Origin: Kitasatospora sp. SUK 42
GTDB lineage: Bacteria > Actinomycetota > Actinomycetes > Streptomycetales > Streptomycetaceae
NCBI RefSeq assembly: GCF_015776785.2
Contig: NZ_LFMD02000002.1
Location: 1,911,960-1,975,959, forward strand
Direction of reading: 5' to 3'
Length of the DNA: 64,000 bases
The notes beneath the pieces were generated by a model that worked only from the letters and a program-made list of their open reading frames with translations, did not search any database and was not told the DNA's origin. Below are positions 5,124-9,079 of this stretch, piece by piece (positions within the stretch are counted from its first letter, which is position 1; each line of letters begins with the position of its first letter). Position numbers and translations under genes: made by a program.

Positions 5124-5570
5124 ATGAAGATCATCCTCACTCACGAGGTGCCGGGTCTCGGCTCCGCCGGCGAGGTCGTCGAGGTCAAGGACGGCTACGC
5201 CCGCAACTACCTGGTCCCGCGTGGCTACGCCATCCGCTGGACCAAGGGTGGTCAGAAGGACGTCGACGCCATCCGTCGCGCCCGCAAGATCCACGAGATC
5301 CAGACCCTTGAGGCCGCCAACGAGGTCAAGGGCAAGCTTGAGGGCGTCCAGGTCAAGCTGGCCGTTCGCTCGGGCGAGGCCGGCCGCCTGTTCGGCTCGG
5401 TCACCCAGGCCGACGTCGTCGAGGCCATCAAGGCCGCCGGCGGCCCGGCTGTGGACAAGCGCGCCGTCGCGATCGCCTCGCCGATCAAGACCGTGGGCAC
5501 CCACAAGATCTCGGTCAAGCTGCACTCCGACGTCCTGGCCAACCTGGACATCGCCGTCGTCGCTGCCTGA
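5124..5570 (+). CDS. rplI: 50S ribosomal protein L9
   Basis: A 148-residue L9, the usual length. It starts [21 protein letters not shown], the rRNA-binding N domain, followed by a long connecting helix and a C domain ending DIAVVAA. L9 binds domain V of 23S rRNA at the L1 stalk base. The start follows GAGGGTG and lies 17 nt after rpsR. It is the last gene of the operon; a strong terminator follows at 5589-5622. Confidence 0.97.
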
Positions 5571-5659: not shown

Positions 5660-7012
5660 CTAGCCCCGGACGGCGCCCGTGACCAGCCAGCGGCCGCCGC
5701 GGGCGCGGGCCACCAGGAAGGCGGCGCGGACCAGCATGAACAGGTTCATCGCCCACCAGAGCCCGGCCAGACCGGTGCCGGCGGCCGGCACCAGGAGGGC
5801 CGCCGGGGCGAACACCGCCAGGGTCGCGAGCGCCGCCCAGGCCAGGTACGGGCCGTCCCCGGCACCCATCAGCACCCCGTCCAGCACGAAGACCAGCCCG
5901 GCCACCGGCTGGCTGAGCGCGAGCAGCAGCAGGGCGGTGTGCAGCTGCCCCTGCACCACCGGGTCGGGGGTGAAGAGCGGGACGTACAGCGGGCGGGCGA
6001 GCACCACCAGCAGGCCGAGCACCACCCCGGAGCCGAGGCCCCACTCGACCATCCGCCGGGTGGCCGCCCGGGCGCCGGGGACGTCCGAGGCACCCAGGTA
6101 GCGGCCGATGATGGCCTGCCCGGCGATGGCGATGGCGTCCAGCGCGAAGGCCAGGAAGCTGAACAGGGTCATGGCGATCTGGTGCGCGGCCACCTGGTCG
6201 TCGCCGAGCCGGGCGGCCACCGCGGTGGCGAGCATCAGCACCGCGCGCAGGCTGACCGTCCGCACCAGCAGTGGACCGCCCGCCCGGGCGCCGGCCCGGA
6301 TGCCCGCCGCGTCCGGCCGCAGCGTGGCCCGCTCCCGGCGGGCGCCGCGGACCACCACGACCAGGTAGACGGCGGCCATCCCGGTCTGCGCCAGCACGGT
6401 GCCCCAGGCCGAGCCGGCCACCCCGAGCCCGGCGCCGTACACCAGCCCGGCGTTCAGGCCGATGTTGGCGGTGAAGCCCGCGACGGCCACCAGCAGCGGC
6501 GTACGGGTGTCCTGGAGGCCGCGCAGCACGCCGGTGGCGGCCAGCACCAGGAGCATCGCCGGGATGCCCAGGGAGCTGATCCGCAGGTAGGTCACGGCGT
6601 ACGGCGCGGCGGTCGGCGAGGCGCCCAGCACCTCGGCCGCCCAGGGGGCCAGCAGCAGGGTGAGCAGGACCACCGGGACGGCCAGGCCGATCGCGAGCCA
6701 GAGGCCGTCGATGCCCTGCTGGACGGCGCCCCGGCGGTCCCCGGCACCGATCCGGCGGGCCACCGCGGCGGTGGTGGCGTAGGCGAGGAAGACGAACACG
6801 CCGGTCGCGGTGGTGAGGGCGGCGGAGGCGACCCCGACCCCGGCCAGCTGGGGGGTGCCGAGGTGGCCGACGATCGCGGAGTCGGCCATCAGGAAGAGCG
6901 GCTCGGCGACCAGTGCGCCGAAGGCCGGGACGGCGAGGGCGAGGATCTCGCGGTCGTGCCGGCGTCTGGAGGGCGCTGTGGGGGCGGCGGTCATGGGCTC
7001 CAGGTTACTCAT
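5660..7012 (-). CDS. MATE-family efflux transporter
   Basis: Up to 450 residues with about 12 membrane segments, starting near LALAVPAFGALVAEPLF, with the MATE-typical GHLGTPQLAGVGVA in the first helices. The family exports cationic drugs using Na+ or H+; DinF-like members are common beside this operon. The start is uncertain: the ATG at 7012 has a poor ribosome site, while an in-frame ATG at 6994 (MTAAPTAP) has GGAG close by. A TCATCCACA DnaA-box-like sequence overlaps the 7012 start. It converges with rplI. Confidence 0.88.
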   Translation of the reverse strand: MSNLEPMTAAPTAPSRRRHDREILALAVPAFGALVAEPLFLMADSAIVGHLGTPQLAGVGVASAALTTATGVFVFLAYATTAAVARRIGAGDRRGAVQQGIDGLWLAIGLAVPVVLLTLLLAPWAAEVLGASPTAAPYAVTYLRISSLGIPAMLLVLAATGVLRGLQDTRTPLLVAVAGFTANIGLNAGLVYGAGLGVAGSAWGTVLAQTGMAAVYLVVVVRGARRERATLRPDAAGIRAGARAGGPLLVRTVSLRAVLMLATAVAARLGDDQVAAHQIAMTLFSFLAFALDAIAIAGQAIIGRYLGASDVPGARAATRRMVEWGLGSGVVLGLLVVLARPLYVPLFTPDPVVQGQLHTALLLLALSQPVAGLVFVLDGVLMGAGDGPYLAWAALATLAVFAPAALLVPAAGTGLAGLWWAMNLFMLVRAAFLVARARGGRWLVTGAVRG

Positions 7013-7271
7013 CCACAGGTAATGGACACCATGACAGTTCGGTCATTACTCGAAATCCTGAGCGACGCACCCGGCGCGCTCCGTGCCCACAGCCGTCCGA
7101 CGGCGTGTGAAGAATTTCTCATGCACAGGCCCGGGACGGGGGAATCGCAGGTCAGCCGGTTGACGGTGGATCGATCGTCCGGTTATCCACAGGGACTTCC
7201 ACAGGGGCGTCCACAGCTTTGCGGCAGTTCTCCACAGGTCGGGGCCCTTCATCCACACCCCCTGTGGATAA
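7009..7271. promoter_or_regulatory. Cluster of DnaA-box-like sequences upstream of dnaB
   Basis: Box-like 9-mers are TCATCCACA (7009-7017), TTATCCACA (7183-7191), ACTTCCACA (7195-7203, weak), GCGTCCACA (7207-7215), TTCTCCACA (7228-7236), TCATCCACA (7249-7257) and TGTGGATAA (7263-7271, the reverse of TTATCCACA). Six fall within 89 bp. The streptomycete DnaA box is TTGTCCACA with tolerance in the first three bases. The last box ends 5 bp before the -35 of the dnaB promoter. No gene is visible in the surrounding 7013-7447 gap. Confidence 0.75.
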
Positions 7272-7276
7272 CCGCC

Positions 7277-7306
7277 TTGGCGCGAGGGCGTCCGGCGCCT
7301 TAGCGT
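7277..7306 (+). promoter_or_regulatory. Probable dnaB promoter
   Basis: TTGGCG (7277-7282), an 18-nt spacer and TAGCGT (7301-7306) fit the vegetative consensus. Transcription would start near 7313, giving a leader of about 135 nt. DnaA boxes abut it upstream. Confidence 0.55.
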
Positions 7307-7447
7307 GGGCCCTCCGCCCGACACTTCCGCCCGCCCCGGCGTCCGATTTGTCGGAGCCGTGGCGTACAAAGAGGAGCGGCTCCGCTCCACCCAGCCACCG
7401 GCAAGGCCCGCTCCAACTTCGCACCACTCGCTGATCGGGGAACACGC

Positions 7448-9079
7448 GTGACCGGCCCCCAGTACGACGACCACGACGCCCCGCCGCCGGAGGAGGACTG
7501 GCAGACCGCCGAGGACCCCTTCCCGGCCGGCGCCTTCGACGACGCGCCCTTCCCGGACGGTCCCGGCGACCGGCTGCCGGTCTCCCGCAACCGCGGCGGC
7601 CAGGGTGACCGGAACGGCCAGGGTGACCGGAACGGCCAGGGCGGCCAAGGCGGTGGCCGGGGCGAGGGCTTCCGGAAGGGCGGCTTCAAGAACGGCAAGG
7701 GCGACCGCGACCGCCGGGACGAGCGCGAGGACGGCGGCCAGGGCGGCGGGGACGGCTTCGAGCGCGTCCCCCCGCAGGACCTCGCCGCCGAGCAGTCCGT
7801 CCTCGGCGGCATGCTGCTGTCCAAGGACGCCATCGCCGACGTGGTCGAGGTGCTCAAGCCGGCCGACTACTACCGGCCCGCGCACGAGATGATCCACGGC
7901 GCGATCCTCGACCTGTACGCCCGCGGCGAGCCGGCCGACCCGATCACCGTGGCCGGTGAGCTGACCAAGCGCGGCGAGCTGCAGCGCGTCGGCGGCGCCT
8001 CCTACCTGCACACCCTGGTCAACTCCGTCCCGACCGCGGCCAACGCCGAGTACTACGCCCAGATCGTCAACGAGCGCGCCGTCCTGCGCCGCCTGGTCGA
8101 GGCCGGCACCCGGATCGCCGGCATGGGCTACGCGGCCGAGGGCGACGTGGACGAGATCGTCAACGCCGCCCAGGCGCAGATCTACGCCGTCACCGAGCAG
8201 CGCACCAACGAGGACTACGCGCCGCTCGCCGACATCATGGAGGGGGCCCTCGACGAGATCGAGTCGATCGGCTCCCGCAACGGCCAGATGTCCGGAGTGC
8301 CGACCGGCTTCGCCGACTTCGACCAGCTCACCAACGGGCTGCACCCCGGTCAGATGATCGTCATCGCGGCCCGCCCCGCCATGGGTAAGTCCACCCTCGC
8401 GCTGGACTTCGCCCGGGCCTGCTCGATCCACAACAAGCTGCCGAGCGTGATCTTCTCGCTCGAAATGGGGCGCAACGAGATCGCCATGCGCCTGCTGTCC
8501 GCCGAGGCCCGGGTCGCGCTGCACCACATGCGCTCCGGCAGCATGACGGACGACGACTGGACCAGGGTCGCCCGCCGGATGCCGGACGTCAGCGAGGCAC
8601 CGCTGTTCATCGACGACTCGCCGAACCTGTCGATGATGGAGATCCGCGCCAAGTGCCGCCGGCTGAAGCAGCGCAACGACATCAAGCTGATCGTCATCGA
8701 CTACCTCCAGCTGATGCAGTCCGGCGGCTCCCGCCGGGCCGAGAACCGCCAGCAGGAGGTCTCGGACATGTCCCGTAACCTCAAGCTGCTGGCCAAGGAG
8801 CTGGAAGTCCCGGTCATCGCGCTCTCCCAGCTGAACCGTGGCCCCGAGCAGCGCACCGACAAGCGGCCGATGGTCTCGGACCTCCGAGAGTCCGGCTCGA
8901 TCGAGCAGGACGCCGACATGGTCATCCTGCTGCACCGCGAGGACGCCTACGAGAAGGAGTCCCCGCGCGCGGGCGAGGCCGACCTGATCGTCGCCAAGCA
9001 CCGTAACGGCCCCACCGCCACCATCACGGTGGCCTTCCAGGGCCACTACTCGCGCTTCGTCGACATGACCCGGGACTGA
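7448..9079 (+). CDS. dnaB: Replicative DNA helicase DnaB
   Basis: A 543-residue DnaB, longer than the usual 450-470 because of a roughly 100-residue acidic, Gly/Asn/Arg-rich N-terminal extension with two exact 18-bp repeats (7603-7638). The helicase starts near VPPQDLAAEQSVLGGMLL, the primase/loader-interacting N domain. Walker A is ARPAMGKST (about residues 308-316) and Walker B is LIVIDYLQLM (about 414-423). The gene is uninterrupted, with no intein of the kind some actinobacterial dnaB genes carry. GTG is the start. It follows the ribosomal operon as in other actinobacteria. Confidence 0.96.
   Translation: MTGPQYDDHDAPPPEEDWQTAEDPFPAGAFDDAPFPDGPGDRLPVSRNRGGQGDRNGQGDRNGQGGQGGGRGEGFRKGGFKNGKGDRDRRDEREDGGQGGGDGFERVPPQDLAAEQSVLGGMLLSKDAIADVVEVLKPADYYRPAHEMIHGAILDLYARGEPADPITVAGELTKRGELQRVGGASYLHTLVNSVPTAANAEYYAQIVNERAVLRRLVEAGTRIAGMGYAAEGDVDEIVNAAQAQIYAVTEQRTNEDYAPLADIMEGALDEIESIGSRNGQMSGVPTGFADFDQLTNGLHPGQMIVIAARPAMGKSTLALDFARACSIHNKLPSVIFSLEMGRNEIAMRLLSAEARVALHHMRSGSMTDDDWTRVARRMPDVSEAPLFIDDSPNLSMMEIRAKCRRLKQRNDIKLIVIDYLQLMQSGGSRRAENRQQEVSDMSRNLKLLAKELEVPVIALSQLNRGPEQRTDKRPMVSDLRESGSIEQDADMVILLHREDAYEKESPRAGEADLIVAKHRNGPTATITVAFQGHYSRFVDMTRD
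7603..7638 (+). repeat. 18-bp tandem duplication in the dnaB N-terminal extension
   Basis: Two exact adjacent copies of GGGTGACCGGAACGGCCA (7603-7620 and 7621-7638), encoding GDRNGQ twice in a disordered segment. It looks like replication slippage that keeps frame. Confidence 0.8.

Follow-up and report, generated by a model that had tools for sequence, protein, structure and literature searches.

An array of six DnaA-box-like 9-mers lies upstream of the replicative DNA helicase gene dnaB, at 7183-7271 of the window (the whole stretch of 64 kb that was analysed), where it is probably bound by DnaA and controls the dnaB promoter (7277-7306) from upstream, most likely by activation. The steps of this reading carry different weight: homology makes binding of DnaA to the array near certain, an action of DnaA on dnaB is likely, and activation is considered appreciably more probable than repression.

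Architecture of the DnaA-box array and the dnaB promoter

The array occupies the gap between dnaB and a divergent MATE-family transporter gene, to the left of which lie rplI, ssb and rpsF. The encoded DnaB is 97% identical to that of Streptomyces sp. FH025 and 86% identical to that of Kitasatospora. Boxes were scored by their mismatches to TTRTCCACA, and the conservation values given with them refer to Streptomycetaceae. The features are as follows.

5124-5570, plus strand: rplI, last of the rpsF-ssb-rpsR-rplI group; where a family has no MATE gene, it directly precedes dnaB
5660-7012, minus strand: gene for a divergent MATE-family transporter, beginning at 7012 or 6994 (Pfam MatE, 7e-48)
7009-7017, plus strand: outlying box TCATCCACA, 174 bp before the 7183 box, one mismatch, overlapping the MATE start region (conservation 0.93)
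7119-7127, plus strand: outlying weak box TCATGCACA, 64 bp before the 7183 box, TTCTGCACA in many Streptomyces (conservation 0.85)
7183-7191, plus strand: perfect DnaA box TTATCCACA, no mismatches (conservation 0.93)
7195-7203, plus strand: weak DnaA box ACTTCCACA, 12 bp past the 7183 box, three mismatches (conservation 0.90)
7207-7215, plus strand: weak DnaA box GCGTCCACA, 12 bp past the 7195 box, two mismatches (conservation 0.92)
7228-7236, plus strand: DnaA box TTCTCCACA, 45 bp past the 7183 box, one mismatch (conservation 0.97)
7249-7257, plus strand: DnaA box TCATCCACA, 21 bp past the 7228 box, one mismatch (conservation 0.93)
7263-7271, minus strand: promoter-proximal DnaA box TGTGGATAA, an inverted perfect TTATCCACA, no mismatches (in 49 of 49 Streptomycetaceae sequences)
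7277-7282, plus strand: -35 element TTGGCG, of which TTGGC is conserved
7301-7306, plus strand: -10 element TAGCGT after an 18 bp spacer, read directly and supported by conservation
7448-9079, plus strand: dnaB, replicative DNA helicase of 543 aa (Pfam DnaB_C, 4e-108; DnaB, 1e-34)

Direct reading confirmed the preliminary description in its count of six boxes within 89 bp, two of them perfect and opposite in orientation, with a seventh at 7009, and in its placing of a TTGGCG-N18-TAGCGT promoter 5 bp past the last box. Successive boxes of the array are spaced 12, 12, 21, 21 and 14 bp apart. A generic sigma-70 scan did not call the promoter, which was instead judged by its conservation and by a test of TTGnnn/TAnnnT geometry; the transcription start is expected near 7313. 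An Rfam search of 6900-7600 returned no RNA family. In S. coelicolor dnaB belongs to the HrdB regulon (PMC6344877). Cytosine methylation (m5C) has been reported upstream of this S. coelicolor gene (SCO3911) and its mRNA is up after 5-aza-dC (PMC10148868), cytosine methylation being a possible second layer of dnaB control.

The window overall is not enriched in boxes, with seven matches of at most one mismatch against 4.9 expected from shuffles. Four of these seven are concentrated in the 89 bp of the array, where the expectation at window density is 0.007 and a Poisson estimate puts four boxes at about 1e-10 per place. The genome (6.57 Mb) has 21 copies of TTATCCACA and a single one of the reversed word; runs of three direct (T)CCACA cores are confined to oriC/dnaA, the cluster upstream of serS and the dnaB array (reversed control 0).

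Conservation in Streptomycetaceae

The array is in register in all 49 aligned Streptomycetaceae sequences (the present one included), with a mean identity of 0.94 in the boxes against 0.75 between them. The alignment was anchored on the promoter-proximal TGTGGATAA, which introduces no selection effect because this box is present in every sequence tried. Spacings of 64, 45, 21 and 14 bp are identical across the Streptomycetaceae, where the outlying boxes at 7119 and 7009 also hold their distances of 64 and 174 bp to the first box; the conservation of the 7009 box could reflect the leader of the MATE gene. Conservation extends to the weak boxes at 7195 and 7207, which argues for their membership of the array. 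A lack of box conservation in an otherwise alignable gap had been named beforehand as the outcome that would speak against the cluster, and in the alignment the boxes stand out as conserved islands. The promoter is equally constant, TTGGCN-N17/18-TANNGT beginning exactly 5 bp after the TGTGGATAA box in 47 of the 49 sequences. Boxes and promoter are held together by selection, the array being selected as part of the dnaB promoter region.

Distribution and phasing across Actinomycetia

Homologous arrays lie 5' of dnaB in 26 of the 30 families represented by 90 loci of the class, although the shared ancestry of the families means that such counts are not independent tests; at the stringency used no array was found in the other four. 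At least two boxes per 150 bp are present in 80 of the 90 loci (2 with the reversed-motif control) and at least three in 65 (0 with the control), and box density upstream of dnaB reaches 8.7 per kb against 0.20 per kb in the remainder of 81 loci. None of 24 loci from elsewhere in the phylum, outside the class, has a comparable array; a few contain two or three boxes. Three dnaB paralogues of about 56% identity are also without an array. The MATE gene is not upstream in most Micrococcales and in Bifidobacterium, and in families that lack it the array is situated, where rplI was found, between rplI and dnaB. Since it is kept where the MATE gene is missing, the array goes with dnaB rather than with the gene on its other side. 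One genome appears to carry two divergent dnaB copies, 73% and 72% identical to the query, with boxes upstream of both; these copies could represent a true duplication or a mixed assembly.

Same-strand box distances are phased at 10.9 bp, with a score, inflated by shared ancestry, of 0.67 against 0.27 for the best of 1000 jittered sets. Distances of 12, 44/45 and 64/65 bp recur across the class, and the phasing may represent one inherited layout. Outside the Streptomycetaceae, 48 of 121 loci have a TTGnnn-N16-18-TAnnnT pair close to the last box against 2.4 expected, which leaves most of the 121 without a promoter of this simple form. In the family-labelled set all promoter-like sites at most 45 bp past a box (11 families) start at 4-7, 18-20, 30-31 or 40-41 bp, distances at which the -35 element keeps the same helical phase to the boxes. 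Such placement is the need of a promoter-bound activator and not of a pure sink.

Activation or repression of dnaB by DnaA

Experimental evidence for DnaA at dnaB comes from mycobacteria. In M. tuberculosis the region 5' of dnaB is among the five strongest in vitro DnaA sites obtained by DnaA pull-down, and ChIP-seq in M. smegmatis gave the same five sites, including a peak upstream of dnaB (PMC7738170). The DnaA variant I282T of M. tuberculosis shows less binding upstream of dnaB, which is uniquely under-expressed (PMC7738170), an effect on mycobacterial dnaB that could be indirect. S. coelicolor DnaA is weak on single boxes and prefers several (PMC4285127), which fits an array. It is proposed that DnaA would bind the strong outer boxes (7183 and 7263) and would fill the weaker phased boxes between them cooperatively, forming an oligomer on one helix face with its end 5 bp short of the -35 element. 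Contact of this oligomer with RNA polymerase would then activate dnaB, and the supply of helicase would follow the availability of DnaA. The class-wide conservation, the promoter geometry and the mycobacterial data on DnaA binding and dnaB expression give good support to the earlier suggestion that the cluster regulates the helicase gene and ties the supply of DnaB to the availability of DnaA. The probabilities are evenly balanced for the wider proposal that the common ancestor of Actinomycetia had a phased DnaA oligomer activating dnaB with the polymerase on the same DNA face, a feed-forward circuit from initiator to helicase that would have been kept in most families.

DnaA bound to the same array might instead repress dnaB, whose expression would fall when free DnaA is high. 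That DnaA represses its own promoter is well documented for several bacteria, S. lividans among them (PMC8203912), and the last box of the array abuts the -35 element. However, the stretch from -35 to +1 is free of boxes, the end of the boxes 5 bp upstream in 47 of 49 sequences is the usual place of an activator, and dnaB mRNA is reduced in the M. tuberculosis mutant whose DnaA binds less, which makes repression an unlikely mode of action. One box has its centre near -46, a position that suits an activator but is no proof of activation. The recognised roles of DnaA are initiation and the repression of dnaA; conserved activation of the helicase gene would, if true, tie together two components that limit the initiation machinery. 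As the array is regular, the phase between boxes and promoter is testable by insertions of a few bases.

Titration and other box clusters in the genome

Clusters of DnaA boxes near oriC are described as restraining initiation in S. coelicolor (PMC4585315), and the dnaB array could be such a DnaA sink (datA-like or of the S. coelicolor type) with no part in dnaB transcription. It is located 38 kb from oriC and, as in the S. coelicolor type, has several boxes within some hundred bp outside the origin. In complete genomes of the class with both positions read, dnaB lies about 22-143 kb from dnaA; dnaB is oriC-proximal wherever the two positions were read, so that distance does not separate titration from regulation. 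On the other hand, neither a constant phase to the -35 element nor persistence next to dnaB when the other neighbour changes is required of a sink; the better candidate for one is a conserved cluster 3' of crgA, in a gap where the genes converge. Titration as the sole function of the dnaB array is thus quite improbable, but a titration role may be added on top of regulation.

The genome has three prominent non-origin clusters, as ranked by pattern searches only, beside crgA, dnaB and serS. The two others are:

L198:2344-2560 (C22:1865343-1865559): DnaA-box cluster 15 kb from oriC, immediately 3' of crgA and between that gene and a convergent rhomboid gene
L201:6016-6397 (C22:1744015-1744396): cluster of DnaA boxes, three of them perfect TTATCCACA, immediately 5' of the seryl-tRNA synthetase gene serS

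Boxes beside crgA recur across the class, at least three per 200 bp being present in 14 of 30 loci (control 0). The crgA cluster probably matches the M. tuberculosis DnaA site Rv0010c-Rv0011c, Rv0011c being taken here to be crgA. This site has been described as without obvious counterpart in other species (PMC7738170), and the present cluster suggests that a second strong mycobacterial DnaA site, next to crgA, is common to streptomycetes.

It is highly improbable that the boxes upstream of dnaB are the sites of another regulator reading TTATCCACA-like words. A different motif, paired TTNTCCACA, does lie upstream of several genes in the genome, some of them competence-type, but its fixed 17-18 bp pair and its preceding inverted repeat are both absent at the dnaB array, and in mycobacteria it is DnaA itself that binds upstream of dnaB. 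Five copies of the TTNTCCACA pair, with a 17-18 bp distance and in most cases an inverted repeat (for example CACCCCTGCGGGTG) in front, are present in the genome (control 0); L088 is a variant:

L084, C22:685970
L085, C29:1906800
L090, C29:941465
L091, C29:1024475
L089, C22:1361411
L088, C22:403505

The genes downstream of these pairs are of UPF0102/ComM-like, ComEA-like, SSB paralogue, TadZ/CpaE-like ATPase, DUF6099 and mscL-like types, and the pairs seem to mark an unnamed regulon that is in part of competence type, with DnaA or another protein as the possible reader.

The frequency of weak boxes, the loose pattern YYVTCCACA being uninformative genome-wide with 394 matches against 402 for its reversed control, would be in favour of a chance cluster, but this and a cryptic second origin are of negligible probability, as chance is ruled out by conservation and the reversed-motif controls, the array has no strongly AT-rich stretch beside it (lowest 50-57% GC) and so lacks the oriC-type combination of box array and adjacent AT-rich unwinding region between dnaA and dnaN, and oriC is located elsewhere, with about 20 box-like sites in some 600 bp.

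Comparison with known DnaA-box systems

The mycobacterial site (dnaB, Rv0057 region, and its M. smegmatis homologue) concerns the same gene and the same place in the same class, Actinomycetia, and is linked to dnaB expression; binding was measured there, whereas in the present organism the array is known from sequence. The text of the mycobacterial report is without box phasing, promoter geometry or class-wide conservation (PMC7738170). The window has the arrangement of the mycobacterial-type promoter, a DnaA-box array directly upstream of the replicative dnaB, and the dnaB array would explain one of the strongest mycobacterial DnaA sites. The link between DnaA and dnaB is thus already known, while no description of the class-wide, phased, promoter-locked architecture was found in the open-licence texts searched.

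In Caulobacter dnaB is included in the DnaA regulon (PMC8203912), and for Caulobacter crescentus predicted DnaA boxes 5' of dnaB and DnaA-dependent expression are described (Hottes 2005, via PMC8203912). The phylum is distant, however, and the likeness is one of arrangement, with no homology of the element implied. The clusters outside oriC of S. coelicolor belong to the same family and are near oriC like the dnaB array, but their reported role is restraint of initiation by DnaA binding, whereas the anatomy of the dnaB array points to the promoter. These clusters are said to have been named H69, H24 and D78 after cosmids by Smulczyk-Krawczyszyn in 2006; H24 may presumably be the dnaB cluster, and H69 and D78 are suspected to be the crgA and serS clusters. 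The datA/DARS elements of E. coli and the oriC-proximal clusters of B. subtilis are also non-origin box clusters that tune initiation, of which datA/DARS act with IHF or Fis on the nucleotide state of DnaA and not via a conserved adjoining promoter.
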